Positions 3,324 through 49,985 of a DNA stretch of 64,000 bases are shown here, one piece after another (position 1 is the first letter of the stretch; every line of letters starts with the position of its first letter). The DNA comes from Isoetes taiwanensis. Lineage: Eukaryota; Streptophyta; Lycopodiopsida; Isoetales; Isoetaceae. Under the pieces are notes generated by a model. That model worked only from the letters and a program-made list of their open reading frames with translations, made no database searches and had not been told where the DNA came from. Position numbers and translations under genes: made by a program. The stretch spans positions 434,001 to 498,000 of the forward strand of contig JAJEKV010000218.1 in the NCBI GenBank assembly GCA_021234155.1, in the 5' to 3' direction.

Positions 3324-3393
3324 AACAAGATTGCGTATTAAACGGGAGCAAATCATTGAAACGAGAGCAAAAGGAATATTCCTCAAAGATTCC
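3324..3393. repeat. Tn-A left terminus: TIR and subterminal box
   Basis: The left 25 bases (3324-3348) start AACAAGATTGC and end AAACGGGAG, mirroring the right end. The subterminal box AAAGATTCC (3385-3393) is the complement of GGAATCTTT, which also occurs near the right end and near both ends of Tn-B. A small palindrome GGAATATTCC lies just outside this box. Confidence 0.85.
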
Positions 3394-3703
3394 CTTTTTT
3401 TTTACAAAAAAGGGGGTAAAACGAGGTTAAAAAAAAAAAAGATGCATGAAATTCTATTTTGACCCCCCCCAAATGACTAATTTTTTTTTGCAACGAAAGA
3501 ATTGACTTTTTTAAAGTGTCACTTTTCTTAGCAAATAGAATGTTCTTCAAGTATGTTTAAAGAGAGAAACTCTAATTTCAGAGGATAAAATATTTAACAA
3601 AAAATTGAAGTAAGTCTGTAACTGAAACTGTAGTATTCTCAAAATTTGAAGATAGAATCTTCATATTCACATGCAAAATTTACAGTCTTTTTCTAAGACT
3701 CAG

Positions 3704-6700
3704 TTATGTGCAAAAGTGTGAGGAGATGATGAGAGGGATCGGGGCGTCTTCATATTCATTTATGCCATCGTCATCACCTTCACTTCTTTCACTGTCATCC
3801 GAGGAAGTGCTTGAGTTATCTTCCTCATCACTATCAACAGACGGTGAAGCATTGTCACCACCTTCTTCATCATCTTCTTCGTAATTACAAGCTTTTTTAA
3901 GCAAATTGATAGTCTTCTGGCGTAGACGATTGTCAGATTTCAATTTAAAATCATAGCACAAAATAGTCACGTCATTAAGGTTTAGCTCGTCCCTACAACC
4001 CACCTTCTTGGACTTTCTCCCTTTTCCTTGGCTTCTCATTTCTAACTCATATCTACCTTCAAAAGCATTTTCTGAGCGTGTTGCAAGCCAATGAATCTTG
4101 AGTTTAGTGACTAAGCCTTCCTCCTTGACTGTGTCAAGCACTTTTGCTATCCAGAACGGTCGACCTTTGTCATCCTCCTCAGTCGGAAGAGCAATTAGCA
4201 TACCTTTGGTAATTTCTGTGATATTACCTTGAGGCTCATTCCTGCGTCTTGGTCCGAGGTACATGACTCGGTCCTCCTCGTCTTCTACTGCAGGTGCAAA
4301 TGTAGCACTGCTTGGACCTGCTTTGGTCTGGGGTTGATGGAAGGTGTTAGGCCATTGAAATGGTTCTTGCAACTGTCTTAGAGCTATATGTTGTACAACA
4401 ATTTTCTGTTCGAGAAAGAAATTACTCCACCACATCCGATCTTCTTCTAAGAAGTACTTAAAGCCTGAGGAAATTCCATTTTCAATGGCTTTTAAGGATG
4501 ACTCTGGGGTACTTTTCTTCTGCTTGGACTCCTTAGGATTTTTGAGAGGAAGTTGTTCAGCACGCTCTATGAAGGAAGTGTCTGGAATGTATTTAAGGAA
4601 GCGTAATCCCTCTGGTGGACTCCAGTCCTTAGTTGTGGTATACTTCTTCCCAGAAGAAGCTTTGGCCATCCTTCAAGTAGAACTTGATATGATGCTGAAA
4701 GGTGAGATCATTCAACTTGTTCACAGCTTGTTCTCTGTTTGAACGTTGAGAGAAAACAAACTCTCTAAAATCAGCAGTCTCTTTAAGAAGGTCGACCCTT
4801 TGGAGTAGGAGTGTAAGAATCTTCAATAATTGAACTAAAGAAGGAAGACGAAAGCCTTCTTCCTTCTAAAAGGCGCCACGAGAAAATCTGCTGAACATTT
4901 GGTCAATCTGATCATGAGTGTGGCCTACAAGTAAGAAACCAAGCTTCACTTTTCTAAAGATCCCTAGCTCCACTAACATGGCACAGTACGCAAAGAGTGT
5001 TTGATTCTTGTTCTCCCTTGTAGTATTGTCAAGTTGCAGATAAAGCACTGGTGGTAATTGCTCTTGCTTTCTTACAGGACCTTGTTAAGAATTGTAATTG
5101 TGAGGTTCGGGTCACCATGCAAGTTTGGATACGTCAAAAATACTTTGCACTTTAGACTTCCTTTGAAGACCATAGCTCCTACAAGGTGGACCTTAACAAA
5201 ACATTCCTCTCGCACATCCTTAGGAATGTTCAAGAAATGTGGTAGAGTTGTTTTTTTTTGGTCCATTCCATCAATCACAATAGACATGTATTGCAGAGTG
5301 GACGTTCAAGAGCTTTTTTTCTATGCTTGGCAAGCTTTCTTCTCTCTGCTGCTTGTTGTTCACGATGTCTGGCAAGGTTACATTTGCACAATATCAGAGA
5401 AGAAATCAGGTCAAAACATTTTCTCTCGAAACAAGTGAGAGATTGGAGAACATGAGCTTACTTCTTTTCGACCTCTGTCTTTTGCGGTTTTCGTTGACTC
5501 TTTAATTCTCGCACACCTCGAGCAAGCGGACATTCTATGTTTTCTAGGAATTTTCACAAGGCGAATTCACTTTTCCATCACGGTGAAGTGTGAGTAAGAG
5601 ATGTCTTTGAAGCTGAGTGCAAGTCTCTTTGTACTCATTAAAACATCTTTTTGGTGATGTTATCGGTTAAATGATACATGTTTTGTTAGGTAGCTTTCTC
5701 ACATGTTTCTCTAAAATATTTCTCCATCCATGACCACGGAAGCAAGGGCATGCATGGTTACAACTCTTCTTGGTCCACAATGATCATCGATTGCTGGATT
5801 TTTTTGTCCGATCTTTTGTGTATTCTAGACATTACGGTGGACCCTAAGCGGTGGACAACCATAAAGCATTTCGGCAAACTTCTTGGACGGTTAATGTAGT
5901 GCAAGAAGGTGTTGCGGTCTGGTCTTACATGATAAGCTAAGTAGGCATTCAGTGCGCCAATGTCATGGAACTCAGTAGTTGTCTCTAGCGCCGCCGTAAT
6001 TTAGCCATATTAAATCTGTTGATGCAACCCAATGAGCAGCATTTAGTTCTCAAAAGTCTCCTCATTTTGTGTTCATCCATAAGATTTCTTCTTCTTCTTG
6101 AGGAGCAGCGCCCTCAAACCAAAATCCACCTTGAATTTCTTTGAAGATTGGCTTGAGAACATGTAATCTCTTTGTTCCTCGTTGGTGTCTTCATCTTCTG
6201 ATGAAACTTCTACTCTGGGGGTGACTTCCTCTGTCCTGAGTGGTGTGCTTGTAGAGGAAAACAGACCACGTGAAGTTGTTCGAGGAATAGGCGGGAGTGC
6301 GGTGTTAAAGGATGGTGATGGCCCATAAGAGGTTGTGGCATCATTTGTTCTTGTACCATCTTGAAAAGGAGTTCTTGCAAACATCTCCTTTAGAAGCGGA
6401 CTGGAATTTCGCAAATCCATGTGTCACAACCGTTGTTGTGTGAAGAGGAGTGCATCTTTGAGCGCCGTCCTCATTTGTAGTGAAGTCCTGGTGAGAGAAA
6501 TTGTCTTTGAATCTCACGGTCTTACGTGTTTTCTCGTGTTCCTTGTATGTTTGCAACGAGGGGGCTTAAACTACAAAAGGGGGGGTAGCTTGTTCTTGAG
6601 CACCCTTTGTTGTGGAGCTTCTGTAGGTCCCGGGGATGGAACAAAGGGTGGTGGCAACCCGTTCGAACCGGTGGTGATTCTTTGGAAGGAGATGCCGCAG

Positions 6701-6923
6701 GCCGCTTTCTCTGAGGACTTGGTGACGGTTGGAAGGGTGGTGGAAGTCTGTTTTGTGCTGGACTCGGTGTGTCTTCGAGAAGCAACAACGATGAAGCAGA
6801 GGTAGGAGTCGGAGAATGCCGGTCTTCACTAGAAATGACGTTGTTCCCAAGCGTGTCCTCAGAACCAGACGAGCTTGAGACAACAAAAGGTGGTGGAAGC
6901 TTGTTCACGAAGCGGTTCGTCAT
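3704..6923 (-). pseudogene. Tn-A transposase (DUF7869-like), frameshifted
   Basis: The likely N-terminus is MTNRF at 6923, followed by Pro/Ser-rich low-complexity sequence (6923-6522 and 6420-6073). A decayed Cys-containing region around 5770-5500 is homologous to Tn-B (CNHACPC, then RKHRMSAC). The catalytic-type core follows: IDGMDQKKTTLPHF with a VHLVGAMVF stretch (5287-5072), then LQLDNTTRENKNQTLFAYC and FLLVGHTHDQIDQMFSRFS (5048-4866). I recognise these as the DUF7869 pattern, probably an RNase-H-like DDE fold. A long C-terminal frame (4669-3704) holds the string GRPFWIAKVLD...LKIHWLATR, which looks tudor or chromo-like, and an acidic tail. Stops and frame changes between segments may partly be introns. 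No intact reading frame spans the gene. Confidence 0.72.
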
Positions 6924-7305
6924 CTTGACAAGCGCAAAATAGTAAAGAGATTTGAGAAACTTTTACAGAATGCGAGCTTTTCTTATTCGAATACACGCCC
7001 ACGTAGTACAAGTAGAAGTTCGATTACTAATCAAGTGAAAGTCAAAATAAAAGCTATTCTCGGAATACACAAGAGTAGGATAGTAAAAGCTGAGCGTATT
7101 CGGATCACATAGAAAAAGAGCAAGGCGAAAATGATACCTTTAAAAGGAAATTTCGGGCGCTTTGATTGCGTATTCAGTCTCTCGAGCTCAAAGTCGCCGG
7201 CGCCCCACATACGATTATTATATTCAGAGACTGTATTCCGATTCACATAGAGAAACCATGGACAGGTCAGTGAGAAAGTACAACATTACAATCATTTGCA
7301 TGTCG

Positions 7306-7640
7306 TTTCTTGTTCGGAATACACTTTTCGCTGAGTCTGGCGAAAGTGTATTCGAATACTCTACCGCCGAGTGGAGGCGAAGTGTATTCGGAATACACTT
7401 TAGCCTTAGATGCTGGCCAAAGTGTATTCGGAGGGCTTTTCGCTGGAAGTGGAGGCAAAGTGTATTCCGAATACACTTTCGCCTCCACTCGAGGCGAAAG
7501 TGTATTCCGGAATACACTTTAAGCCTCCCTTTCGGAAAGTGTATTCGAATACACTCTTTGTACTCCAAGGCTTAAAGTGTATTCCGAACACCCGCCTCCA
7601 CTTTCGAAAAAGCTTAAAGTGTATTCCGAATACACTTTTC
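7306..7640. repeat. Tn-A intergenic palindrome array (nine sites)
   Basis: Nine sites built from the half-sites GTGTATTC and GAATACAC are centred near 7316, 7353, 7390, 7430, 7468, 7508, 7546, 7585 and 7627, so spacing is about 37-42 bp. The centre varies (TTCGAA, TTCCGAA, TTCCGGAA), and the 7430 site keeps only one half. Spacers repeat CGCCTCCACT in both orientations. The array lies between the divergent transposase and ParB-methyltransferase genes. Weaker half-sites extend over 6980-7250. The short frames that read through the array are repeat artefacts. Confidence 0.93.
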
Positions 7641-7881
7641 GTGTTTTTTAGGTTTTAGAAGTTACTTTTCCTTCCGTTTTTTAGTTAATTTAGGCATTCT
7701 TGCTGCATTTTTTAGCTTGTTTAGACCACTTTTTTTGCCAAGATTGCTGAGTGCTTTTTTGACATTTTTGTCCTCTTTTTGCCCTCTTTTTTCCCTTTTT
7801 GTAAGCCATTTTGTATTCTGGAATAGTTCTTTGCCACTGTTTTTTCTAACAAGGTCGTGTTTACACACAATTTGCCTGAAC

Positions 7882-10800
7882 ATGGCGACGGGCAGCAAGA
7901 AAGAAACAAAGAAGCCTCTTAAAATCGTACAGAAACCGCACCCACAGAGAAGGGTTGAGGAGTCGGATGCGCCCGCTATTTACGAAAACTTCCAAACTCA
8001 ATGGTTTTTTACAAGGGGTACTTCTGGAAAGTACAAACACCACGACTTTTCTCGCATGTCTGGTTTGGAGCCACGGAACCAAAAGGTGCGATGTGGGGAA
8101 TTTGCGCATGGGCACCATCCCGTAAAGCGGAGTGAGGTAGTTTGGGGCCGGTAAGGGAGGGAGATTGTCTTTTCGGACATCTCAAGGCTTTATTCATGTT
8201 GATGAATCCTACCTTAGACTTGTGAAGGTAAATCCACATCCTCTTTATAAGTATGTTTCTCACTACATTGAACAAGAGGTCGCTCTTCGCCATCATTAAT
8301 TACGTTCAAGCACAACGGCGAGGACTTCCCCCTACGAGTGAGAGAACAAGGGGAAGAGGAAGATCCGGGGAATCCATCGGGGAGTCCATCACGCGATCAT
8401 GAGCCCATCCGTGAGTACATCAGGTTGGAAGAGCAACCACCTCCACCACCAAAGAAAGAAGCGAGAGGCAAACCATAGGCTGCTAAAGAGCCTAAGAAAA
8501 GAAAACGGCTATCATTGAAGCAGAAGATGCTCCCGAGGATGCACACAAGAAGAAGAAGGGGAAAGGCAAAGCACCGGGCGTTGCCATCAAAGAAAAAAAA
8601 GTTGATAAAACAGCAGAGAAAATGGAAGAAATAAACCTGCACAAATTTGTGCAAGGTGTCATTTATTTGCCGGTCCACGACTATGAAGCTTCCTCCAAAA
8701 ATGAAGCTGGAGAACGACCAACTGCGCAGTTCGAAAGATATATGCAGACCACCTAAGGAACCTCAAGGACGAATCGGAGCAATCCCAATGCACATGTAGC
8801 TCCAATTGTTGTTCTTGTTGATAGAGAGCGATGCACAACTCTGCAGAGAGTCACGATAGAGAAAATGCGGACACATATCGCATTATGTTTTGGGTGGGAA
8901 CCACGACTTTAAGGCAAGGAGGCAACTATACAAGGAAAAAAAGAATCCTAGGTACTTTGCATTTCTCAGGCTTTGTCCTCATCGTGGTTTGACCGACGAG
9001 GAAGCTAAAATCGTTGCCAACACTCTGGCCCGACAACGAGTACAAGTTAAAAATGAGCTTTGTCGACAAAATCAGATTCATGCACAGAGAATATGTTATC
9101 TTCAAGGAAAAATATGGAGAGGATCTCAAAAAGCCACAGTACTCCCTTGAACTTAAAGAAGCTTGTGCCATTGAGTGTTGCCTTAAATATGACGAGGCGA
9201 ACAAACGGGCATCACTCATTGGTCATGACAATTGGTTTCAGCTAGCGTTCAGGGATGGCCGGGTAAGGTTACAAGCGTATCCCAGAATAAGATTTGGTGT
9301 GCAACTAGCTTCTAAGTTTTTTAATTTGTTTGCAGATCTGGGAGCTTCAGAACGAAATATTTAATATGTTTGAGCGCGGTGAGCTAAAAAGTAAGGGAAA
9401 GGTGTCGGAGAAGAAGAAAGGCAGCGACGTTCCAAAGAAGGAAATGACCATCACATGCGGAGGGAGATGGGGTTCAGCGACCACGAGAATTACTAGAACA
9501 CTTACGCAAAAGGTGGTGGACAAGGAGTTCACACTTTCGAAGAAATGTCGAAGGAGTTGCACAAGTAAGCATACAATCATTGCCGCCTTTTCACTTGTAG
9601 AATTACGTCCGGATAACGGCAATTTAGTGGTCCGGAAATGCTTTCGCACCCTCATTTGGAGCGAGTGTATTCCGAATACGTTCTCTCTTCTTGTAGTGTA
9701 AAAGTGTATTCCAGAATACACTTTTACTCCTTTGAGTCAGCGAAAACGTATTCTGGAATACACACTCTAACTTGTTGCGTTGTAGAAGTGTATTCCAGAA
9801 TACACTTTCGCTTCTTCTTTTGATTAAAGTGTATTCGGAATACATACGCGCAACAAGAAAAATATTGATTACGGCGCTTGTATTCTAGAATAACTTTGGG
9901 TGGCGGGGAAGATAGTTTACTTCGCGTTTTTCTCTTTCCAACTGCTAAAAAGGTTGTGTTTTTCTTTCTAGCCAAAAAAATGTTATCACCTGCCAGACAT
10001 GTCTGATGGAGCAACTCAACGTGGAGACGTGGGAGAGGTGCAAGGAGCTTTATCCCATAGCTACATCCGACGAAGCGTATGCTTCAAGACGCACCAAATT
10101 TTGAAGGATGGATGCTTGTACCGACTAAACACGTCATACTTTACTTGTCTGTCTCAATCTCCCCTTTGTTTGCAGAACAAGAAGAAAAAATAAGGACTGC
10201 CGGAAGGTTTTATGCACCTTGTCGACCGGCACACGAAGAAAGAACACCGGCGAGAGAGGAGAACTCTAGATGTGGAGCCTACGATTATGAAAAGTTTAAT
10301 TTATTTGACCAAAATAATTTGTTTTCCATCATTCACGGGACTGCGCACTAATTTGGTTGGGACGGTAAAGCCACAAGATTTCCTGCCGGTGATTGCGGAC
10401 CTTCCTTATGGCTTTAAACTAAGGGCGGCCGATTCTGACGACCCGGCCTTTTAAATTTTTGAGTTTAACGCTTTTCGTCGGCGACATCAAACAAGTCTAG
10501 CAACGCCAAGCAGCGGCGTCTTGTCGTGTTTCACTCGAGCATGCAATCGGCCTTGTGGAGTCCACGTTTAAAACTCGCCCGGATCCCGATTGCAAATTTG
10601 GTTATGAGAATTTGGTTTGGTGAGTACTTTATTACGGAATACGTTGGGCTTGTTTCTTCTTTTTTTGTTTTAGTTTTCTATTCGAATATAATTGCCTTTC
10701 ACTTGTTCTCTTTGTTTGTTTCTTGTTACTGTTTTCGTTAGTGACACTACTCATTTCTCTGGTACAAAACAAATATAAACTACCACCATGGGCGAGATTC

Positions 10801-11406
10801 TTTGAGTAAGGTTGAATACCTCCATGTTGCTTCTTGGAGTTTCGATGGAAAACGCACCATGGAGCATTTTAACTGGCAAAGACATGCGGAATTTTTCTAA
10901 TGTGTTGGAATTTCCAGTTGTGCTTCAAAAGCTCTGAGGACCCTAGTGCACAAGGTAGAATTGTTAATCACTACGAAGCCTCAAAAGCTAATCAACCATC
11001 TCCTAGACATGTTTTCACGTCCGAGGAGATTGGGTGCTTGATGCCTTCTCGGCTCACGGTACAACAATAGCTTGTGCACTTAGGAAGGGCCGAATTGTGT
11101 AGCGATGGACATTGATAAAGAAGGCTGTGCAATTCATCAAGATGAGGCTGGCGGCCTTGCCTACCCTACCCGGATGAGCACCAAGAGTTAGGGGCCAAAT
11201 CCTCATCCGATTTTTGCCAAGTGACCTCTTTCTTCGAGATCTGACCTCCATTCACTAGCTCTTTAGAGGATGAAGCTACTTTTGCAGAGCTGAAAGAAGT
11301 GGCACTAGCTACCATTCCCGAAGACTTTGCACAAGTAGACAAGGGTAAGGCACAAGAAAAGGATCGATCAGAGAATGGGCATGTGAGAATCAAGCAAAAA
11401 GCATGA
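7882..11406 (+). pseudogene. Tn-A ParB/Srx-like plus DNA methyltransferase gene, decayed
   Basis: The ATG at 7882 opens MATGSKKETKK..., which aligns with the Tn-B gene. Homologous blocks follow in order. A basic, Lys-rich linker lies at 8340-8640. The ParB/sulfiredoxin-like segment (about 8780-9270) has VAPIVVLVDRERC, VLGGNHDFKA and LTDEEAKIVA, then YVIFKEKYGED and IECCLKYDEA. An exon with IWELQNEIFNMFERGELK (about 9335) and the exon KNVITCQTCLMEQL (about 9975) follow. Methyltransferase motif IV appears as ADLPYGFK (10395-10418). Motif I appears as GDWVLDAFSAHGTT (11025-11066), altered from the DAFSGSGTT of Tn-B. Donors such as the GTAAGG after FRDGR match Tn-B splice positions. Stops and frameshifts break several exons. 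The acceptor substrate cannot be told from sequence. Confidence 0.68.
9665..9893. repeat. Tn-A intronic palindrome array (six sites)
   Basis: Six further sites of the Tn-A palindrome are centred near 9673, 9712, 9754, 9796, 9837 and 9886, spaced about 40-50 bp. They have centres such as TTCCAGAA, TTCTGGAA and TTCTAGAA. The array sits between the exon ending ...EEMSKELHK and the exon beginning KNVITCQ, so it is intronic by comparison with Tn-B. Tn-B has an eight-site array in an intron of the same gene. Confidence 0.9.
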
Positions 11407-11732
11407 TGAAGACTTTGATTTGGACCTTTAGTCCGTCTTTTCCAAAAACATTATCTATCGACCACCATGTGATGTTACAAATTGTATCATTGAAACACTC
11501 TTCATTATATAATAATTATTTTATTCACTACATTCTGGTGTTTTCAAGATAGTACTTTTTGAGAATACAAAAGCATGTCTAAATTCTTCCCTTTTCAAGT
11601 GTTGGTTTTGGCAAATTCCAAGTTATTTTACACTAGGGGGCCAAAAATGAGGTAAAAAAAAATTAAGCCTATTGGAATTCCCAATTAGAAGGAAAAAAGT
11701 GTCATTTTCTAGATCAGGCTGTTTTTTTCAAG

Positions 11733-11786
11733 GGAATCTTTGAAACGGGAGTGCTGCAACACTCCCGTTTAATTTGCAATCGTGTT
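11733..11786. repeat. Tn-A right terminus: TIR, hairpin and subterminal box
   Basis: The subterminal box GGAATCTTTGAAACGGGAG (11733-11751) leads into a perfect hairpin. Its arms are AAACGGGAGTG (11743-11753) and CACTCCCGTTT (11760-11770), with a 6-base loop. The last 25 bases (11762-11786) are the inverted repeat of the left end. Tn-B has the same layout at its right end with a different hairpin sequence. Confidence 0.88.
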
Positions 11787-21880: not shown

Positions 21881-22807
21881 CCTGTGTATATCGGAATCAG
21901 ATGAGCTATTGGTAAAGAATTCATTTAAAAATTGAACGACATCTGCAGCACACTGGAGTTTTCTCCAATTATACTTCAGTTGTTCCTTTGTGAGAAAACT
22001 TTCTACCACTGCTCCTTGGCCATCATGCTCACCTTTTCCATGCGAGCTGGCAAAGAAATTCCAAATAATCTCCTTCATAAGATCTCTGTACCATCTACCC
22101 AAGAAATAGAATGGTCTTGAAGACTTAAATTGAGATGAACAACCATCTGACCATACGTAATGCTTGGAATATTGAATACCATTTACCTCCAACCAAGTGG
22201 CATGTTTTAAGAGGCAATGCTGTACAAATTCAGTGCCAAGAGATAGAAGTGACACTCTTTTATAATTTCTCTGTTATCATCTTTTTGCTTCATATCTTTT
22301 CTTTTCTTCTTGATGTCATTGCCATCCACCTCTTGTTTCCTTCCAAACCTGTAAGTGATATGAACTAAAATGGATACCTGGTCAGTGTGCCAATGACATT
22401 TCTGCAAAGTCAATTGCAGAAACTATTGTGTCTTCTCCAAAACTTGCCAAACATTGTCTGAATTGTTTTGCTTGCCAATGAGCCTTGTAGTTGTGTGGCA
22501 CAAATGCTGCCATTGTTTTTCTTGCATGTTCCTGAAATTCAAAAGGGGTACTAGTCTTGTAGGCCAATCTTGTAACTTTAGTTGGTTTCTTCTTAGGGTT
22601 TCTCTTAGAAACAGCTTCTTGCTGCAAGTAGTAGAATCAACAAATTAGTATAAATTATGACGTGATCCTTCTAACACAAACTCAACACTAACTTTTTCAA
22701 AAACTTTCCAATCCACCAGGTGTTCTAATGATTTACTTGTTTCCCTTGGACACTTTGGAATCCTGTATAAAGTGGATTAGAGAAAGTACTGTAAGAGAAT
22801 ATTGAAG

Positions 22808-25152: not shown

Positions 25153-26323
25153 TTGTGCCTCCGCGATGGTCTCCCCGAATTGTCGGGGCTTCCCATGGCG
25201 AAGGGAGATAGTCTCAACTTCGATTTGCCGCAGACATGGATCTCATCTTCCTCAAGGAAACATGGGAGCATGCGGGGACCACGGGATACCCGACTTGCGG
25301 GGATCTGGGCACAAATCTTCAATGATTGCACAGGAAAGCGGGGGTATGGGGGGGTTGCCTGCTACTACCGAACAACCTTGGCACAATCAATCTCCTTGTT
25401 CAAGGCGGATAAGCACAAGAATTTTGTGGGTGCGGCGTGCAAACTGCGAAGTAGTGAGACCCTCTTTGTGGCGACTGCTACTTTCCACATGCGTAAAGCA
25501 ACTTCTATTACACCCCTTTCGGATGTGAATAGGCTGGACCCCTATGTCGATCTATATGATGACATACAAGAAAGATAAACAGGTTGGGCGTGTCATACTC
25601 CTTGGAGACTTCAATGCGCGCGACCGGGGTAGAACAACCCATGAGATTTGATCCCTTGATCGATGATATATTGCGGTTGCATCTGCGAGAAGGAGCTTGG
25701 CCCACGGACATCGATGACAATCAGGTCACAGCGCTATGGTCGACGATTGCTTTTGCTCTGCAAAGTATATTTGACCTCGGTAACTGCAATGGGGGCACGG
25801 TGGCCTTCCACCCTTAAGAGCACTTGTAGGCGGAAAACCGGGGGGCAGATCTAGTGTGGTGGACTATGTCTTTGGTGCACGAAAGGGGATATGCATGCCG
25901 TCAAGCACTTTCGGTGGGAACAACTAATAGGGATGAAGAGATCGACTCGGACCACTTACCACTTTACTTGAAGTTGGCTTGGCGGGTTGTGCGAACCCGG
26001 TGCAACAACTCCTCGCATGCCTCACATTGCGATTGGATTATGAACATGCGAGGGGCTTATGCCCGGATGCTTATAGATGACACCGCGTAAATTTTGCAAT
26101 ATCCTACACTAGAGCAACAGCAGCCGGGCGACCGATGTGCTTAGGACTCCAGGGCGAGAGAGGTGCTTTGGGATAAGCAGCCCAACGACGAACCTCCGGA
26201 ACACAACCTTCCCACGTAATCAATGGTTTGATGTAGAGTGCAAGGAACACAAACGCCTGGCTCTGCCAAGTCACGACCACCTTTTCGCCCACATGCGGGA
26301 CTCGGACGATAAACAAAGTTTAA
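25153..26323 (+). pseudogene. LINE ORF2 endonuclease domain (frameshifted)
   Basis: This is the AP-endonuclease (EEP family) part of LINE ORF2, which nicks target DNA for target-primed reverse transcription. Visible motifs are a GKRGYGGVACYYR segment (about 25330-25375), VILLGDFNARD (25592-25624) with the catalytic Asp/Asn, SSVVDYVFGAR (25850-25882) and SDHLPLYLKL (about 25947). The reading frame changes near 25580, 25640 and 25830. Sequence then continues toward the RT but is cut by Tn-B at 26323. 24400-25150 is decayed ORF1/ORF2 sequence without a clear frame. Confidence 0.78.
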
Positions 26324-26379
26324 AATGAACGCACTTATTTCTTTGGAAACGACTTCAAAAGGAATCTTTGAAAGATTCC
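26324..26379. repeat. Tn-B left terminus
   Basis: The 17-base TIR (26324-26340) is followed by the subterminal box GGAATCTTTGAAAGATTCC (26361-26379), itself a near-perfect palindrome. The GGAATCTTT core is shared with both Tn-A ends and the Tn-B right end. Confidence 0.88.
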
Positions 26380-26699
26380 TAAAAATTCCTTAAAAAGTCC
26401 ATTTTAAGATTTTTTTTTTGTGACAGTGTGACAATTTAGTTAATTTAGGTACCTTTTTGAGGGGTTGATTGAACATAACTTCCGTGCAAAAATTTCAAAT
26501 AGCAATTTTATCCTCCTATTTTAGAACAAAAATAGTTACTTATGTAAAGTGTAGCAAAAAGGGCAATAAAAAAAAATAGCAAGAGTAGTAGAGTGACAAA
26601 GAAGTGATATATTCAAGGTTGTGAAAATTGTACAAAATTATGAACAAAATTGTCAAAAATATAGGACATTTTGAATGACAATCATCATCTGCACTTTAC

Positions 26700-29529
26700 A
26701 TTCTTTACATGTTCGAGTCATCGGACAAACTTACATTTTGCAGCAAGATCGGGATGCATCTCATCCTCGACTCATTTATTCCCCGATCACTTGAGCCTTC
26801 ATCCTCGACTTCACTCTCAAAACTAGATGTACTTTCGAGCGATCTTCTTCCTCAATCGTCTACAAGTGAGTCTTCATCATCATCTTTTTGGCCACCTTTT
26901 TGGCTTGTTTGTCTAATCCACATGCCGACCTTATTAAAGTTTGAGTGACCATCGTAACTTATTAGCGCATCAAAGAACAAAGTCATATGCAAGAACCTTT
27001 ACTTGATTAGATCTATGACGGCCGATTGCTTGCTTTGGACTTAGCTCTCTTTCCCACTCCTGTTTTACCATCTCCAAAGTATAACTCCCCTTTGAAAGCA
27101 TTGGCGGATTCGTTTCTCATCCGGTGCACTTTTAATTGAGTGGGAATTCCATCCTCTCTTGTTAATTCCAGTACTTTAGCTAGCCAAAATGGCCTCCCAG
27201 ATTCATCATTATCATTTTGGGACAGCTATGAGCATTCCTTTTCGAATCTACGAGTGAACCGGATACTCAAGCAACTTGTTGTCTTTGTGCATCAGGGGCG
27301 GTGTACATGACTCTGTCATCTTCATCCGAAGCTAGCCAATATCTCTACATGTTCCTCTTGATTCTCAACTTGCACGGGGAGAGTTTGCCTAGATGGCCAG
27401 TTGAATATGGCGGTCTTCGACCTTGTAATGAAGCTTGCAACATGTCACGTTCTTAGAAAAAAATTGAGGCCACCATAAAGCATCTCGCCTCCCCAAAGTG
27501 GTTAGAGCGGGATCAATACTTGTCTCAATATAATCCAATGATTTGTTTGAGTCAATTGCTCTTCCCTCCTTTTTACTCTTTGTGATTTCTTTCAAGCTTT
27601 TTAGAGGCATTTTCTGCAGAGAGCATGGAACTAGTATTGGGGATGGTGCGAATGAATTGAATACCTGGCCCGATGGCCCTTTGCAAGGATGTGGCATATT
27701 TCTTTCCTTGTAAGATGGCCTTGCCATCTACAAGTGAAATTTTGATCCGATCTTTGAAATGTAATGTTTCTCAAGGGCTCAATAGCACAGTGACCCAGTT
27801 GATCTCTCCGAAAAATCCATTCTTTGAAATCATAAGTTTCTTCCAATAACTCGATGTCTGGACGAGGATTGTAGGAATCTTGGATAACCTCAATCATTGC
27901 TGGTAGGCTGAGAGCTTTTTTTCGAGCAAGACGTTTAGAGAACCTCTTGAACATCGATCAATTTGATCGTGTGTATGACCAACAAGCAGGAAACCAATCT
28001 TCACCTTCTTGAAGATTTGTTTCTCTACTAGCATAGCACAGTAAGCAAACAACGCCTGATTCTTATTTTCCCTTGTCGTGTTGTCTCAGAACCGGTTGTT
28101 CTAGATTGGAAAGAAGCTTATTCAATATTGTGATAGTGAGATTTGGATCAGCATGAATGTTTGGATAATTCAAAAATGCCTTGCAAGATAGTTTTCCATT
28201 AAATACCATAGCACCAACAACATGCGGATGTATGAAATCTTCTTCAAGAAACATCCTTAGGCACATTGACAAAATGTGGTAGGGTGGTCTTCTTTCGGTC
28301 CATTCAACCGATATGTAGTTGAGTGGTTGTTCCAGTGCTTTCTTCCTATGTTTTGTCAATTTTCTCCTTTCCAAAAATTGTTGTTCTCTGTGCTTGTTCA
28401 GTTTCTCCTTCAATGCATCTGAAATGAAAATATGTTTAGGAAAGAACCTACTTTTAGTTAGAACTAGGCAAGAACACGCCCGGAAGCTTTATTGTTAGTG
28501 TGAAGTGTCCTTGCATTTTGTCTCCGAAGCTTTTAATTGAGCATGTAGCACAAACAGACATCCGGTGCTTTCTAGGAATGGACACGAGAAAACTCTTTTT
28601 CCAGAGAACATGAAAGTAAGAGTAGCGGACAAAAGCATTCTCCAGCCTCAACACACATCTCCTTATAATTATCGTAGACTTCTTGTTTCGTGAAATTGTC
28701 ACTCAAGTGGTACATGGGGCTGTTAGGGAGATTCTCGCAAGACTCCTTAAAGAAACCTTCCATCCAGGAAACACATTGAAGGGCATGAATTCTGGATATA
28801 CCTCCTGAATGGCAGTAGTCATTAATGCCTGGATTCTTGTCAAGCCTTTTTCTTCAGGCGGTCAAGTCGTCACACGCCTAAAGCATGAATCAATTTGAAG
28901 GCCGTTTGGCGCACTGGCGTGGCCACCGGTATGTAAGTAAACTTCTCACCACAATCGGCCTAATATTGAAGGCTAAGTAGCCCCTTTGGTCTAGCGAGTC
29001 ATTGAACTGTGAACTATCACGAATCAACCTCAACTCCTTTAGTCCAATCTTAAGCAAACAACGCGTTGAGAACAACAATGCTTTGTATGTGTTGCCCGCA
29101 AGTGAGCCTCGGTCCATGAGTTTCTTTCTTCTAACAGTTGTACATGCTTTCTTGTGTAAATTACGCTTTAAGATTCTTACTTGCAGGGGCTTTGAATTCG
29201 AACATGGAGTCTTGTGGCCCGGTAGATCCTCGCCTCGAGACATCAACATGAGGTGTTTCTTCGATGCGAGAGATCAACATGAGGTGTACTTGTAGATCTT
29301 TGAGAGGTTTGATGTGGGCAAGTCACGGGGGAGGTGCTTTCCCTCTCTCACGGGAAAAAGTAATCGAGGTTGGTGACGAAGTTGACCAGCTCCTGAAGTG
29401 TCGTAGAACACAGTAGTTGCGTGTCGCTGACTGCTCCCACTTGTTGTAGTACCATTTAGCGAAATGGATGGAGTTGGCGTAATTTGCCTCCGGGGAGGGA
29501 GGCTCTGCAGTTCTTTTCTCTCGAGCCAT
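26700..29529 (-). pseudogene. Tn-B transposase (DUF7869-like), frameshifted
   Basis: The likely start is MAREKRTAEPPSPEANY at 29529. A Cys-containing region at 28763-28540 (SWMEGFFKESCENLPNSPMY, RKHRMSVCATC) matches Tn-A. The core has MDRKKTTLPHFVNVPKD just after an in-frame stop (about 28310), VVGAMVFNGKLSCKAFLNYP (about 28200), an ENKNQALFAYCAMLVE segment (about 28060) and FLLVGHTHDQID (about 27980). Then come TYDFKEWIFRRDQ and the C-terminal DALWWPQFF segment (27727-27389), which aligns with DRMWWSNFF of Tn-A. The tudor-like C-terminus is decayed (about 27250-26950). Stops and shifts interrupt the core, so the copy looks inactive. Confidence 0.72.
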
Positions 29530-29553
29530 ACTCAGAAAGTTAGCATCACACTC

Positions 29554-29722
29554 GTATAAATTTATACCTACGAAGAAACGACGGTATAAATTTATACTGA
29601 GAGATGGTATACATTTATACGAAAGGGAAACTCTTGGCGGCAGACAGTATAAATTTATACGGAGATGGTATAAATTTATACAGAGGAGGGCAACATAGAA
29701 CAGAAACGGTATAAATTTATAC
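29554..29722. repeat. Tn-B palindrome array upstream of the transposase (six sites)
   Basis: Six copies of GTATAAATTTATAC or one-base variants are centred near 29560, 29590, 29613, 29653, 29674 and 29715. They lie directly upstream of the transposase start on the minus strand, in its promoter or 5' UTR. Spacing (21-41 bp) is less regular than in the next array. Confidence 0.93.
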
Positions 29723-29978
29723 AAAAACTCACAGACACTTGTATTGGAAACTTTATGGAGAAACGCTATACGAAACGGCACTTAGCAGGGGTACTTAAGC
29801 CCGGCCCCAATTCTATTTTCTATATATAGCACACCGAGTCGGCGCCAAGGGTCCGCCTTTATATACCCCTTCTTATTTGCTCAGGAGCGTCTATACGCTA
29901 GTCCATACGGGTCATGGCCACGTAAGTCTACTTCCGCATCGCTTTTAGTTTCTCTTTGTTTTAATCTGTTAGAGTGGT

Positions 29979-30252
29979 AGCTCGAGCGGTATAAATTTAT
30001 ACCGAGATGGCTCTGGATCGGTATAAATTTATACGCCCCGTGCTCGAGCGGTATAAATTTATACCGCTCTAGAACACGAGCGGTATAAATTTATACCGTT
30101 CAAGAACACTTGCGGTATAAATTTATACCGAATGTGTTCTGGAACGGTATAAATTTATACCGCTCGAGCACGGGGCGTATAAATTTATACCGATCCAGAG
30201 CCATCTCGGTATAAATTTATACCGCTCGAGCTCGGGGCGTATAAATTTATAC
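29979..30252. repeat. Tn-B main palindrome array: nine phased sites in a larger inverted repeat
   Basis: Nine copies of CGGTATAAATTTATACCG (some lacking one flanking base) have centres at 29995, 30027, 30057, 30089, 30121, 30153, 30183, 30215 and 30245. Every step is 30 or 32 bp, about three helical turns. Sites 1-3 with their spacers (29979-30066) and sites 6-8 with theirs (30145-30232) form perfect 88-bp inverted arms around a 78-bp middle. Position is between the two divergent genes. Confidence 0.96.
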
Positions 30253-31961
30253 CGTTTCAAAATTGTTTCGGAATCTTGGTGTCTAGTGCTTAAAGAATGG
30301 ACCCGAACCTTAATATTTTAGTAATATTGTTGTGTTTTAAGCTTAAATAAGAAAAAAAAAGTGTTAATTAATTGTGGATTTTATGCCCTTTTAGCCTCTG
30401 TTTTTACTGTTTTTGTGTGTCAAAAAGTGAAAAAAAAAACATTTCTTACTGAAAAAATGGTTTTAACATAACAGTTCGGCCCAAGGATAAAATTTGTGCA
30501 CAAAGGCCAATCTTCAAAGGTTGCACCAATAGAGCCACAGACGTACGAACTAAAAGACCAGACATGGTACGTACACAGGGGCGCAAGAGAGAGCAAACCA
30601 ACTGACGCGTACCTGTACTTGTGCCATCAGTCAGGGAAGGGCAAGTACAAGGCCGTTGATTATTATCCTGCCGGCGAAATTATAAACATGTCGGCTACAG
30701 AAAACGAAGATGAACTTTTAATGAAGTGCATGCATGACAATGGGGAAGTCTTCTATGTTCTTAATAGTAAAATGCTTAGATTAAGCATGTGCAAGCCCAA
30801 AGACGTATCTGAAAATTACAAGGGCGGCTATGTAAGTTATTCTTAGTGGCTTTACGTATAAATTTATACCGTCATCCTCCTAACTTAACCCTGCATTACA
30901 GGATATAGTGGACATTTTGATGTCAGTGGTGCTTTGCGATGAAAAGGTGTTGGTCAAAGGTCTGTGGTACCCCACTACTATCGAAGAGGAAGAAAATGAT
31001 GAGGAAGTAGAAGAAGAAGAGGAAGAGGAGGAAATAGTAATACCAAAGGGAAAGGGTAGGAAGCATTCCCTGGTAGTAGATACACAGCCTCCCACCAAAA
31101 AAAAGACTAGAACCACAAAGGCATTGACTATAGAGGAGTCAGCAGAAGCTCTTCAGAAGGCTCCGGGTGCAGATATTGTTGTGAAGCCCGTAGACAAGTC
31201 AAGTGCTATTCTAAAACGGGTTAATGACACTAAACTGCTTAAGCAAACAATTTCCTTGACAATGAGCACTATTAAGAGGCCGCCTAAAAATGAAGATGGG
31301 GTCAGAGTTCTTCAGGTACGAAAGCTGTGCGCGGCCATGTGGCTATACTCAAGCAAAGAATGAGAAGGAATCCTCATGCCCATGTGTCGCCACTAGTTGT
31401 AATGGTTGACAGGAGTCAGTGCAACCAACTAAAAGATTATAAAAAGGCTAACTTTGAGGATTACACATATTTTGTACTTGGAGGCACACATAGTTACAAA
31501 GCAAGGAAGGAACTTTCAAAAGAAGAATCCCGTAACGAAGTTTGGAAGAGCGTAGAAGCACATATCTACGTTGGAGTCACAGACGAGGAAGCAAAGGTCA
31601 TTGCCGTGAGTCATAATCTCGACAATGACTTCAGACTAAAAATGAGTCTTATAGACAAGATCCGCTTCATGCACCGGGAATACGTAGAGTTCAAGCAAGT
31701 GCATGGGGAGGACTTCAAAAAACAAAAGAACAAGCTCCAAGAACTTCGAGAAGCTTGTATCATAGAGTGCTGCCTCAGCTACGATTCAGATAAGAAGCCC
31801 ATAATGGCTGTGAAGCAGTACGACAATTACTTCCAGCTTTCTTTCAGAGATGGTCAAGTAAGTAAAAGCTTTAATTTAGTTCTCTATAGTATGCTTAGCA
31901 TAGCTGAGTTTGTATATTAACATCGAACTTTGTAAATGCGTACCAAGGAAGACCAGCCATG

Positions 31962-32192
31962 GTATAAATTTATACCGTGCCTGGTCACAGTATAAATTTA
32001 TACCGCGTGACCGCATAAGATGCAAAGATAAATTTATCATCGTCACCGTGCACCGGTATAAATTTATACCGTACCTGGTGACTTCGTGATAAATTTATAC
32101 TGGTGATCCGCACTGCAGATAAATTTATAAAGAGGCCCGGTGACGGTATAAATTTATACCGGTAGCTCCGGTCACCGGTGATAAATTTATAC
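31962..32192. repeat. Tn-B intronic palindrome array (eight sites)
   Basis: Eight sites of the GTATAAATTTATAC type are centred near 31968, 31996, 32032, 32062, 32093, 32123, 32152 and 32185. Some halves are reduced to GATAAATTTAT. They lie in the intron between the exon ending FRDGQ and the exon starting VWDLQERIF. Spacing is about 28-36 bp. Spacers contain GGTGAC/GTCACC words in both orientations. Confidence 0.93.
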
Positions 32193-33265
32193 CGGGTCGG
32201 TATTCCTTGTGCAATAATATAGTAGACTTCACAACAAAGCTTTGTTGTTATTCGCCATTCAACACTAAAATACTTGTGTTCGATCGTCAACAGGTGTGGG
32301 ATCTTCAAGAAAGAATATTTTGTATGTTCGAAGATGGTGAGCTGAAAGAACAATCTATGTCTGCCGGAAAAAAACCAAAAAAAGGTGGTGAGGCAAAACA
32401 AAAAAACATGAGCATTGTACCCTGGACGCAGCTACAGGGTTTGAAAAGCAAAGAAATTTTTGTAAGACTTCTAGAAAAAGTTGTGGCCAAAGAATTCACT
32501 CTCGACGAAATGGCCAAAGATTATGTCGTGTTCTTTTTTTCCTAATTTTGTCTGATCACATTTTTCCCTCTGCAGTCAGAAAGACATTGTCACCTGCCAG
32601 GCAGAATTAATGAAGCAACTAAACCTGGAGGACTGGGAGGAGTGCAAGGCTTTATATCCAACCTCTACTACAGATACTATTATCAAAGAGCACTTATTTG
32701 TTAACTTCAAGTTTCGGGTAAGTTGTGCGAGAAAATACTTTTTGTTTTCGTGCCTTTGTCTCTGTTTTTCTTGCGTAGAATAAGAAGAAAGGCCTACCAA
32801 CGGGATTTTTAAACCCGGGTCAGTGAGGGGCCAAGGAGGAGAGGCGTAGACCGAAAGCAATTGAGCAAGGAAAGCAAGTCAAAGACTAGCGCTTTTGACA
32901 CTACTTACGAGAGATTTACTACATTTGGTCGACGCCCAGTCAGGTGGTTGTTCGGGGATCGCACGCAGGTCGGGACTCTTTTAAACAAAAAAACTTTACG
33001 CTATGCATTGCGATATTCCTTATGGCTTCAAAATCAAGGATAGCACTTTTGACGCGAGGAGGCTTTTACTCACGTGCAAGTCCGTTCTTTCTTGGATGGC
33101 CTAAAAGAAGTCACGACATCGAAAAACCGGAGGGTCATCATTTTTCATTCGACCTGCAGACGATGTCGGTGCTAAAGCCATTGGGAGTCGCGTCATGTCG
33201 CGGGCTTCAAAACCGCATATGGTAAGCTTTGAATTTCTTGCTTTTCTATTTACTTTAACACCACG

Positions 33266-33337
33266 GTATAAATTTATACCACAGTCGCCTCGTGGTATAA
33301 ATTTATACAGCAAGGCAATGGTGGTATAAATTTATAC
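33266..33337. repeat. Tn-B three-site palindrome cluster in an intron
   Basis: Three copies of GGTATAAATTTATACC are centred near 33272, 33301 and 33330, 29 bp apart, in the intron between the motif IV and motif I exons. Single copies also occur in the first intron (centre 30862) and over the stop codon (centre 34088). Confidence 0.93.
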
Positions 33338-34089
33338 CGCCACACCACTTAACTAACTTATTTTGTTCGTTTTCTTTCTGCCAATGTTTAATTGCTTTTT
33401 TGTTTGGCAGGCTAAAAACAAATGTCAAAGGACATGGTGGTGGTCCGCGCTTAGTAAGCTGCTTTGAACATTTCCATATTGGTTTTACAAATACGGACGC
33501 CAAAAACCATGGTTCATTTCAACACGCAGAATGAAAAGACTCCACCCTGCAACGCCTTTCAGTTTCCGGCTGTTCTACAAAAATTGAGAGACCCACAACG
33601 ACAAGGAGCTGTGGTATCTCATTATCAGAAGCCACAACGGCTAATTAATAATTTAATTCAGTGGTTTTCTCGCCCAGGAGACTGGATTCTAGATGCATTT
33701 TCAGGCTCAGGCACCACAGCAGTTTGCGCCCTTAAGCAAGGGCGCAATGTTGTCTCCGTCGACATAGACCAGGACAAAATAAGTTTCATCAGGACCAGGA
33801 TAAGCTCTTGTGAATCCTTTCCTGATGAAAACGAGGAACTGGGAGCAAAAAACGGTGCTGGCGATGTGAAAGGCACATATACAGAAATCCAGCCTCCACT
33901 TACGGGAAGAAGAGATGAGGAGGTGGAGTTTGTCGATCTGGAGCCTGTGGTGCCTGAGCCAGAGAAACAGCCTGTACCTGTACCATTGGAATCAGAAGGG
34001 GGCGTCTCTGCTATTAAAACCTCGCAAGAGACAGATCCTAAGGGGTACGAGAGTCCTGTGGACTGGGAAGAGCCACCTCCCGTATAAAT

Positions 34090-35200
34090 TTATACAGACA
34101 GTATTTTAAATTAACTTTCATTGTAATCTATGTGCTAAGAATTTCAATATATTTTGATGAATATTTTTCAACTGAAAACTTTGTCTCTTTAACAATGCTT
34201 AATTAGAACAATTCTTTTTTTGATTTATGATTTCACACTCTTTCTCTTTTCTATGTTTGATTTTCTTAGTACTTATATTAAGCTTGCAAAAAGACAAACT
34301 ATATTTCCTTCTATTTTCAACAACAAATACTTACCTTATTTTTTTTAACTGAACCATTGGATTACAAATCCATTAGATTCGCAAATTTAAGCAATGAATA
34401 CGTCTACATGCATAAATACATGTAGAGCGTACAGCTTCAACGCAGAGCTTCAATCTGATGACAGATCAACGCAGCAACCAAACCGCTGAACATTTAAGGT
34501 GCAAGAACGGAATCTAATAAGAAGCAAGAAATCGAAATCCAGAAGCAAGAATCCGTAGCAAGAAATCAAATCCGTGAGGCAAGAATCGAAATGGGCCGGG
34601 ATTTGAACCCCGACGAATCCAAACCACTTGTGCACAAACAAATTTGTAAAGTGAACGAAGAATCGAAATGGGGCGGGAATTGAACCCCCGACAAATCCAA
34701 ACCATCAGGCATCCTAGGCGAGCCCACCCGCATCGAAAGCGCTTTTACGAGCCTACCAGAATCGCTCCTCCCCGCTTGCGTGCTCCAAGTAGCTCCAAGC
34801 GGTTCTTCAAAGACAACTCTATGCCTTCATAGTGCGGAATCTTCTTCATCTCCTTCGCCATATTTGCCCAGCCCCGGCTCGAGTTTGAGATAAGAACAAG
34901 CGGAATTAGGAACACCCTAATTTCGCCCTCTAAACGGCCTTTCCTAAAAAACCATCTTCCAAAAAAATAAACCCCCAAAACCATTGAAAACCACCCCACA
35001 TAAAATCTTTTGCGAACCTTATGAGTTTTTAAATTTAATGTCTCTCTCCTCAAAACAAGTTTTTTTTTTTTTGCCCTTTTTTAAAAATGAAAAGGCTTCA
35101 AAAATGTTGCTTTTTTTGGGGTATTTCGAATGCTATTTGCTCAACAATCTATTTTGCTCCCTATTTTGTCCATTTTTTTCAAGTTTCCAATTTTTATAAA
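34090..35200. other. Tn-B right flank, noncoding
   Basis: No gene is visible. 34100-34440 is AT-rich. At 34591-34623 and 34671-34704 two related segments, in complement, carry GGGGTTCAAATCCCGGCCC and GGGGGTTCAATTCCCGCCCC. These resemble a tRNA T-arm (Pol III B box) and are 80 bp apart. No complete tRNA cloverleaf was found. 34750-35160 holds decayed open frames without recognisable domains. Confidence 0.5.
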
Positions 35201-35241
35201 GGAATCTTTCAAACGCACTTCTTAAATAAGTGCGTTTCATT
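35201..35241. repeat. Tn-B right terminus with hairpin
   Basis: GGAATCTTTCAAACGCAC (35201-35218) leads into the hairpin AAACGCACTT (35211-35220) / AAGTGCGTTT (35228-35237) with a 7-base loop. The terminal 18 bases invert the left TIR. The layout matches the right end of Tn-A, while the hairpin sequence is different. Confidence 0.9.
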
Positions 35242-35245
35242 TTAA

Positions 35246-37455
35246 ACCTTGTTAGTACCGCATCTTCCTTAAAGCTAAGAAAGCCAGCTACATTGCAGCG
35301 CATCAAAGGGAAATGTTTTACCTCCTGGAACGTCACCCCGGGACCTTCCGGCGAAGGGTTCTTAGAAAGCCGCGATGTGAGCCCACGTGGAATATCACTT
35401 CCGAAAGTGGAGGCAATACTTTGCAACTACTATACGACCCTCGGGGTGCACATGCAAAGATTACCCTTGCAAGAAGGCCAGTCTTTGGAAATCACAGATT
35501 CGGACGTGGAACAAGGCTTACAACAGATTGCCAATGGGAAAGCCCCGGACTTGGATGGTATGCGCGTAATTGCTTAAGTGGGCGTGGGCCGCCCATAATA
35601 CCGAAGTGCGACCGCCTTGTTCAACAAGGCATTACAGAAGGTTTCCCCAATCGCGCAGTGGACCAATAGCGTAGTTGTTCCCATCTATAAGGCGGTGACC
35701 CACACCGCCTGTACCCACCACCGAACAATCATGGTCGGTTCGGTGTTTGCAAAACCGCTTGTTGGGATTCTCAAGCAGCAGTTGACGAGCTGGGCAGAGG
35801 CAGTAGAGGTGCGGGCCCTCACCCAGGCTGGATTCAGATCCCGACACTACGATTGACCACATCTTCACGCTATTAACTCGATTGAAGATAGCAGGAACCG
35901 CCCGGGGATCTATATTGTTGCTTTGTGGATTTTTGCGAAGGCGTTTGACACCGCGTGCCTCGGGAAAAACTATGGGCAAGCCGCGCAAACCGGGGGTTTC
36001 GTAGATTTGCGAATGCAGGTCAAAGCTATATGAAAGATGCTTGGGTCGGTTGCGTTGACACAAACCAACCATTTGGTAGTAGTATCGGGTTCGCCGGGGA
36101 TGCCCCTCTCCCCAACATTGTTTGGGCTTTACATTGATCAATTGGAGAGCTGGCTTGCCGATAATGGGGCGATGGAGCTCACCTTCTCCATCGATCATCG
36201 GCGGATTAGTTAATATATGCTTTGATGATGTGGACCTCCTAGCTTACACACCAGCGGACATGCAACGACATCTCGATGCCCGGACACATCTCCCGCCAAG
36301 CGACCGATATGCGGCGTCAACCCGCCAAGACTAAGGTGGTTTTCATATCATCTTCACGTCGGTAGGGGGTCCCTCCTTCGCCATCGAGAGGCTTTAATGT
36401 GGAAGTTGCATCCACATACAAATGTTTGGGAGTGGTTTTTTTTTACTACTATAACCGATGGGATACATCCATGGGCTACGAAAGTGATAAGTAGCCGGAA
36501 GGCACTATATGCAATGCAAAACAATAGTCATAGAGCGGAGTTGTATGATTGGGCCCATCGGTCCACACCTATTCAAGGTCTTAGTGGAGCCCTGTCCTTT
36601 TTATACGGGGTGGAAGTATGGGGCCCAAAGAGTATCACTTGCTACTTGGAATGACTTGGAGCAGTCCGAGAAAGCCTTCTTAGTCACGAGCACTAGGGGT
36701 AAAGTCCACAGTCCCATATCAAATTCTAAAGCAGAGACAGATTCTTGCCTCTTCGGAGGGCTGCCCTTGATCGTCACATTGTCTATTTTCAGAAGGTGGT
36801 CAATATGGACGATGCTCGTCTCCCTAAACTAGCTTATATCATGGCAATGGGGCCGCAGCGCCTCAAGGCCTCCTGGAGGGAAAAGAGAGCTCAATGGTTG
36901 GCTAGATGGAATGTGCATGAGCACAGGTGCATACATGTGCAAACAGAGGCAGATCGCCATAGCTTGAGGCAATATCTTGATGCTTGCTTCCTCAGCAAGC
37001 TTTGGGATGCCAATGCCCTTGAACATGTCAAGACCGCACACTACCAGCGCCACATAAATCCCACATTGGAACGAGGCCCTCAATGCTACCTGCGTACCCA
37101 GTTGCCCATGAAAAGGCGCAAACTCATCGCCTTCGCACAGGGGCACATCATCTTCGAATTGAGACGGGCAGATGGATTGGTGAGCCACGCCAGGACAGGC
37201 TCTGTTAATGCTGCCAAATGGGAGTCATTGAGGATGAATCTCATACCCTTCAAAGTTGCCCAAAGATATGATCAAATTCGACAGCGCTTATGCCGAAGTT
37301 GGTCGCCCGCCACCGTTACATGTGACATTGAGCACAGCATCCGTACGGGTGCTGAGATCATACCTTCAGGAGGTTATAGACATGCAAGATCAGTTATGTC
37401 CTCGGGCACACACTTGACATGTATAAATACATTGATGTATACTTGTACAGTTTGA
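35246..37455 (+). pseudogene. LINE ORF2 reverse transcriptase and C-terminal part (frameshifted)
   Basis: This continues the LINE interrupted by Tn-B. RT strings are NGKAPDLDGMRV (about 35535), HHRTIMVGSVFAKPLVGIL (about 35720), TQAGFRSRHYD (about 35825), FAKAFDTA (about 35935) and FGSSIGFAGDAPLPNIV near 36075, where QGCPLSPTLF is expected. The catalytic box is degraded to CFDDVDLLAY (about 36218). The thumb and C-terminal region is well preserved in 36745-37455 (DRHIVYFQKVVNMDD, MAMGPQRLKASWREKRAQWL). The last part contains spaced Cys/His. Several frame changes exist, so this copy is inactive. Confidence 0.85.
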
Positions 37456-49980: not shown

Positions 49981-49985
49981 CATGG

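Follow-up and report, generated by a model that had tools for sequence, protein, structure and literature searches.

Tn-B is a terminal-inverted-repeat transposon in a 64-kb stretch of an Isoetes taiwanensis contig (JAJEKV010000218.1; the whole stretch is called the window) and has two divergent genes, one encoding a DUF7869 transposase-like protein and the other a predicted ParB-like/DNA methyltransferase fusion protein (ParB-MTase). Both the window and the 1.66 Gb genome were searched. Tn-B and its relatives carry arrays of a short palindrome in almost exclusively noncoding positions. The palindrome sequence is specific to the lineage of the element, all of its forms share a common frame, and one intron site is strongly conserved. 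From these features we infer that the fusion protein probably binds the palindromes of its own element, and that it would methylate the DNA there, tag the element and keep it expressible.

Palindromic sites in Tn-B

A search of the whole window with the 18-mer CGGTATAAATTTATACCG at up to 3 mismatches gives 25 matches, all of which are at positions 29552–34097; 100 shuffles give none. With weaker copies added, 28 sites are found within Tn-B, which agrees with the count of about 28 in the first-pass annotation, made by a model from the letters alone. That annotation considered all of the sites to be noncoding. This is the case for 27 of the 28, located in the divergent promoter region or in introns, but the last site overlaps the stop codon of the methyltransferase open reading frame (Table 1). 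In lineage B generally, 553 of 554 sites are outside of the matched coding exons. The ends of Tn-B are free of sites: there are none in the left 3.2 kb, the terminal repeats have no palindromes, and the last site is 1.16 kb from the right end, or about 0.47 kb when an insertion described below is not counted.

The intron-1 array is part of a nested inverted repeat (positions 29979–30254, 93% identity over 256 bp), and some other arrays of lineages A and B are likewise nested inverted repeats. The presence of sites in transcribed introns, together with the long inverted repeat in intron 1, could be taken to indicate RNA hairpins in the transcript that serve in splicing or small-RNA production. 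This is very improbable, as the sites are perfect even palindromes without a loop, which are typical of DNA sites for dimers and make poor hairpins, and they have a regular pitch.

Table 1. Positions of Tn-B, Tn-A and their parts in the window.
Feature	Position	Strand	Remarks
Tn-B, whole transposon, ~8.9 kb	26312..35253	+	Shared right terminus of 5 relatives and matching inverted left end in window
Left terminal inverted repeat of Tn-B	26312..26341	+	93–97% identity over 30–32 bp to right ends of 5 relatives
DUF7869 transposase-like gene of Tn-B, decayed	27066..29528	-	tblastn pieces 28902–27066; first Met at 29528 read from sequence
6 palindromes, shared divergent promoter region	29552..29724	.
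ParB-like/DNA methyltransferase gene, with introns, decayed copy	29914..34087	+	Start read by eye
9 palindromes, intron 1	29987..30254	.	Array itself a nested inverted repeat
N-terminal exon, fast-evolving	30481..30831	+	About 20–29% identity to other lineages
Single palindrome, intron 2	30854..30871	.	Conserved across copies
Exon with acidic/basic linker and ParB-like core	30902..31857	+	tblastn, remote-homology comparisons
8 palindromes, intron after ParB-like exon	31960..32194	.	Four weaker (3 or more mismatches)
Two small exons, E4 and E5, after ParB-like exon	32294..32711	+
Methyltransferase exon, motif IV (DIPYG)	32779..33222	+
3 palindromes, intron between methyltransferase exons	33264..33339	.
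Methyltransferase exon, motif I (FSGSGTT)	33406..34087	+	PF01555 on 33458–34087; extent by tblastn
Last palindrome	34080..34097	.	34082–34095 overlaps TAA stop of methyltransferase open reading frame
Right terminal inverted repeat of Tn-B	35224..35253	-	Right ends of relatives
Tn-A, sister element of a different lineage, same two-gene divergent layout	3324..11786	+	Inside helicase-like gene
Tn-A promoter array, TGTATTC-N0..2-GAATACA type	7315..7640	.
Tn-A intron array after ParB region	9662..9890	.

The palindrome follows the lineage

Exact palindromes number 4415 for the B form, 2585 for A, 213 for D and 13 for C in the genome, and reversed-pattern controls give 0. Relatives were collected with the B ParB exon (151 matches, 2990 candidates), a Tn-A fragment (best 150 of 1956 candidates) and DUF7869 (best 150 of 9901 candidates), with scoring limited to 150 candidates per search; the candidate numbers represent a loose first look and the candidate lists overlap. 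Lineage B is represented by the best protein matches to the B ParB exon and by three others from that list. All 36 of these loci, which represent 33 distinct copies with that of the window included, have TATAAATTTATA and none has the full A site; a single A half-site is found in one B locus. For lineage A, the 12 best matches to the Tn-A fragment were taken, plus six loci of lower identity or from the methyltransferase list. TATTC-GAATA sites are present in 18 of 18 and the B site in 0 of 18. The six added loci are about 78–92% identical to the reference ParB region (best stretches) and have kept the A palindrome. The first-pass annotation had named the lack of palindromes in intact relatives with the same protein as contrary evidence; all of the retrieved loci that match the ParB region have palindromes, and this extends to lineages C, D and E.

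Ten loci were sampled from the DUF7869 list, the first three of which were checked by eye as being away from known ParB matches. Nine have the palindrome of their lineage: four are B (L073, L075, L076 and L079), one is A (L071), two are C (L069 and L070), one is D (L072) and one is E (L080, with L081). The tenth, L074, has no palindrome; it is interrupted by a long reverse-transcriptase-like open reading frame, shows no ParB match in 6.8 kb and is uninformative.

The ParB region of lineage C is 65% identical to that of B and 56% to that of A. Its sites are of a relaxed B form, GGTATRAATTYATACC, with 6 per locus at up to 2 mismatches compared with 0.02 or fewer in shuffles (for the C, D, E and strict A sites these moved two-base blocks and are not exact dinucleotide shuffles). 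Two of the 13 exact C palindromes are 4.4–4.6 kb from methyltransferase matches (C1037 and C1059). Lineage D displays a ParB exon (43–50% identity) and methyltransferase exons, with 12 sites at up to 4 mismatches compared with 0.0 in shuffles. The lineage E ParB region is 57% identical to that of D. Its sites are D-like and more varied, and exact TATGCGCGCATA is found twice.

Site frame, placement and conservation

All sites have the common frame TAT-N6-ATA, i.e. TATAAATTTATA in lineage B, TATRAATTYATA in C, TATTCCGGAATA with a variable centre in A, and TATGCGCGCATA in D and E. The five lineages carry three clearly distinct site forms: A, B/C and D/E. The B site contains TATAAA on both strands and is found at a promoter position, and the first-pass annotation had offered as an alternative that the sites serve as promoter elements. 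However, the A and D/E sites have no TATAAA, which rules out the TATA-promoter reading. TATA-box-like promoter or enhancer elements for host factors are scarcely credible, in that host factors do not account for lineage-specific sites or for arrays in introns. Any host factor is disfavoured because the binder should change with the lineage.

The most frequent site pitches in lineage B are 28, 30 and 32 bp; the pitch is mostly 41–43 bp in A and is 30–31 bp in D. This is near three or four helical turns, loosely so for B. The placement of the sites differs as well. Those of A are in the promoter and in the intron after E4; those of B are in the promoter, in four introns and at the stop codon; in D, some sites separate transposase exons, and others are found in the promoter, within the ParB/E4 intron and past the methyltransferase. 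Because site positions do not correspond between lineages, the arrays appear to have been gained separately with the frame kept.

In lineages A, B, C and D arrays are located between the two genes, and this position bears on two other explanations. One takes the DUF7869 transposase as the binder, with the palindromes serving as accessory sites in transposition or in the regulation of both genes. DUF7869 is present in the longer copies that were read (Tn-A, Tn-B, three of lineage B, one of A, and those of C, D and E), and the promoter sites sit between the two genes. However, the Tn-B sites are away from the ends, its terminal repeats are without sites, and sites fill the introns of the other gene; this explanation is unlikely, although it deserves to be kept in mind. 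The second is that the palindromes are operators by which the ParB-like protein regulates its own and the transposase promoters, with methylation serving otherwise. The position between the genes and the symmetry, which is of the type bound by dimers, would suit an operator, but the many sites in later introns and the one at the stop codon are superfluous for a simple operator and the fused methyltransferase is left unexplained, so that this is rather improbable. The ParB-MTase is favoured as the binder because the sites keep clear of the ends of the element and occupy the promoter and introns of the gene that encodes it.

Intron 2 has a single palindrome, and its upkeep thus cannot be accounted for by homogenisation of an array. 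In lineage B its 14-bp core shows 7 changes in 448 cells (1.6%) compared with 169 in 1504 (11.2%) for the rest of the intron, i.e. seven-fold fewer; these counts are from 32 of the 33 copies (L011 could not be aligned and was dropped), the cells are not statistically independent, and protein similarity was the basis on which the copies were picked. The core is exact in 28 of the 32 copies. Its mean column identity is 0.984; the splice donor has 0.995 and the rest of the intron 0.892. The next most conserved 14-bp stretch of the intron, at 0.960, contains the acceptor. This has a bearing on the proposal that the arrays have no function and arose as short tandem or inverted repeats expanded passively. 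Array copy number differs between copies and the arrays are nested inverted repeats, as such expansion would produce. The near equality of the intron-2 site and the splice donor in conservation, the same frame across lineages and the avoidance of coding exons make it improbable.

The ParB-like/methyltransferase gene

In the predicted protein a ParB-like core is preceded by a variable N-terminal domain and followed by a DNA methyltransferase of the beta class. On sequence evidence the Tn-B gene clearly ends in an N6/N4 DNA methyltransferase: positions 33458–34087 match PF01555 at 1.9e-15 (57.9 bits, cut-off 26.7). B relatives display the motif order DIPYG (IV) then FSGSGTT (I), and the catalytic residues are kept; the A copy has DLPYG. 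Motif IV ahead of motif I, as these motifs are usually named, is the beta-class order. In a genome search with PF01555 the best 150 of 1443 candidates were scored and these 150 are over the cut-off. In the pieces of the elements that were scanned, Pfam cut-offs are exceeded by three families only: DUF7869, PF01555 and the methyltransferase-fold PF01170. The window copy of the gene is decayed and many relatives have longer open frames. The ratio of nonsynonymous to synonymous polymorphism (pN/pS) is 0.034 for 30 B copies; this value is biased low, the copies being the best protein matches, and is not main evidence.

The middle exon is, with moderate confidence, a remote relative of ParB. ParB-like families of PHROG match the B region at 0.0019 and 0.014 and the A region at 0.0091. 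A search of plasmid proteins with the A region (E up to 10) gives 11 records, all 11 of them annotated as ParB family protein, each at E 0.8–9 and individually not significant, with several closely related. An hhalign comparison with four plasmid ParB proteins gives 85.7% (P 5.5e-6) over 74 columns, query positions 61–138, although the P value is optimistic since the four were picked out of the 11 weak matches. The reversed control gives 0.1% and 30 shuffled controls give at most 2.1%. A fifth candidate, a phage ParB (L058), was excluded from this alignment. In a phage search 7 of 13 weak records are annotated as having a ParB-like nuclease domain; the best E-value, 0.09, comes from a stretch of a Sulfolobus virus in which no gene is named. 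Viral contigs gave 110 pattern stretches, none of which was confirmed. The best rows of a PDB search, at E 0.28 and 0.08, belong to enzymes or chaperones that are unrelated, and sulfiredoxin-1 is found at E 2.7 in the PDB profile search. The first-pass annotation had described a ParB/sulfiredoxin-like domain followed by a methyltransferase. The methyltransferase is borne out by the PF01555 match, and for the ParB part the evidence is of remote homology only.

Proposed function

The ParB-MTase would most likely bind, as a dimer because the site is twofold-symmetric, the palindrome arrays in the promoter region shared by the two genes and in the introns of its own element. Protein bound to dense arrays would probably methylate adenine (or N4-cytosine) within the arrays and nearby. 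This methylation may tag the element and keep it expressible. The marking and the escape from silencing are suggested by analogy with VANC proteins, discussed below, and by reports on adenine methylation, which is stated to accompany permissive chromatin in other eukaryotes (PMC12695648). The interpretation given in the first-pass annotation, of a protein that recognises the palindromes as a self-recognition or anti-silencing device, is in this way partly supported. The fast-evolving N-terminal exon, instead of the ParB-like core, could hold the specificity.

A tentative further possibility is self-marking of a ParB-parS type in a eukaryote, where the palindrome is an address of the lineage in which the TAT/ATA frame stays constant and the six bases of the core can change. 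The element's own ParB-MTase would then read this address and write methylation, of adenine or N4-cytosine, on no lineage but its own, which would thereby escape host silencing.

Several observations weigh against binding and methylation by the fusion protein. With regard to the sites, those of lineage C are mixed and include one exact B core at each locus. The sites are laid out almost identically in the two C loci, which therefore represent two copies of a single arrangement and leave few independent contrasts. A pitch of 28 bp, as seen in B, does not correspond to complete helical turns. The transposase gene co-diverges with the sites and could encode the binder, and no intact element free of the ParB-MTase gene was found that could have served as a negative control. 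With regard to the protein, Pfam and NCBIfam scans of the ParB region give no ParB match, and the best Pfam rows are sub-cut-off with unrelated names. The profile check proposed in the first-pass annotation is therefore mixed, with the weak PHROG matches and the 74-column match on the other side. A search of the genome with PF02195 (ParB_N) gives 0 matches at E 0.001 (2 candidates were scored); the same search is positive in 10 of 14 control genomes. The top PHROG row for lineage A is a family without assigned function (0.00085). ParB proteins have a cytidine triphosphate (CTP)-binding box, GERRxRA. At this position lineages A–D read GG[NT]H[ST][FY]KA and the arginines are not conserved. A helix-turn-helix likeness to plasmid ParB was seen by eye only and is outside of the hhalign match.

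Comparison with known systems

Bacterial ParB binds parS, short palindromic sites that occur in clusters. The Isoetes elements resemble this system in the predicted ParB-like core and the clustered short palindromes. They differ in that the homology is remote, the nucleotide-box residues are altered, a methyltransferase is fused, the arrays are dense and the setting is a nuclear transposon.

Another of the closest known systems is Sola1-1_Ec32 of Ectocarpus, a DNA transposon described as having an accessory gene on the strand opposite the transposase that encodes a ParB-like and N4/N6 DNA methyltransferase protein (PMC12477816). Its authors suggest that proteins of this kind may bind to the transposon that encodes them and modify it epigenetically. 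The type of protein and the idea of self-binding are thus already published. As described there, Sola1-1_Ec32 belongs to a brown alga and is 21.5 kb long, a single Sola-1 family is listed, and the passages on it mention no target-site arrays, whereas the elements of the window are about 8.5–9 kb each and the Isoetes genome has thousands of exact palindromes with lineage-specific sites. The same paper cites similar proteins in green and red algal transposons (refs 50 and 51 of PMC12477816). A literature search, with the Bostrychia and Iyer papers outside its scope, found no target-site arrays for ParB-MTase proteins. Ref 51 is the Bostrychia genome, and ref 50 is probably Iyer 2011. The lineage-specific sites appear to be new. 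Candidate sites matched to lineage make the published suggestion of self-binding testable by a swap experiment.

VANC proteins of Arabidopsis VANDAL elements, as presented in PMC5735166, are also encoded by a transposon with dense noncoding motif arrays (introns and upstream), and the motif varies between related elements. The VANC21 motif YAGTATTAY is however arrayed in one orientation and VANC causes loss of DNA methylation (PMC5735166), unlike the palindromes and the element's own methyltransferase in Isoetes. Pfam scans of the element pieces show no domain shared with VANDAL (Mutator-like element (MULE) transposase, VANC). The comparison made in the first-pass annotation therefore applies to how the system works and not to membership. 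If the proposed function is correct, the VANC principle would have been invented a second time and without relation to the first, in a plant and by means of a protein that writes methylation where VANC causes its loss; the Isoetes elements would then also provide a natural matched set of DNA readers and sites for targeted DNA methylation.

Bounds of Tn-B and the sister element Tn-A

The first-pass annotation bounded the element at 29529–34100. These bounds are too small: in alignments of Tn-B with six relatives homology extends past them on both sides, and they are ruled out. Tn-B spans 26312–35253 because the right ends of five relatives share one terminus, of which an inverted copy is found at 26312. 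An insertion of ~690 bp at about 34335–35018 is missing from five relatives. By eye it has tRNA-derived-looking stretches (short interspersed element-like); ARAGORN found no tRNA gene in it. The 4-bp flanks of Tn-B are unequal (GATA/AGTA), thus this copy has no clean target-site duplication.

The DUF7869 gene of Tn-B is transcribed away from the ParB-MTase gene. A query pieced together from relatives matches PF25273 (DUF7869) at 2e-53 in a profile search. We take the protein to be a transposase because it is inside a terminal-inverted-repeat element and has a DDE-like appearance by eye. No literature was found under the name DUF7869.

Tn-A splits a helicase-like gene at positions 682–3323 and 11787–12194, which we presume to be PIF1-like, as in Helitrons. 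Tn-A is flanked by AAGG on both sides, and the helicase-like frame runs on across the empty site when the 4-bp duplication is counted once. The strict A form GTGTATTCYRGAATACAC at up to 4 mismatches gives 8 matches in the window compared with 0.8 in shuffles, and five of the eight are inside the two Tn-A arrays. Duplications of 4 bp are seen in three of the four elements with both ends (AAGG, ATTG and TGTT), Tn-B being the mismatched one. Sola1 has a 4-bp target-site duplication. The same length is given for Sola2 in PMC3627910.

Other features of the window

The first-pass annotation considered the DNA to be of a plant. The genome has 28 matches to the LOB family, which is presumably plant-specific, in agreement with this. 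By eye, decayed reverse transcriptase open reading frames resembling those of long interspersed elements are present at 35254–37455 and 58315–62196. Open reading frames on the minus strand at 20954–22273 resemble another transposase by eye and have no Pfam match. An array at 49700–49985 is built around four TTTCCATGGAAA palindromes and related short repeats, and a perfect AATAG pentamer repeat of 25.8 copies is located at 57309–57437.

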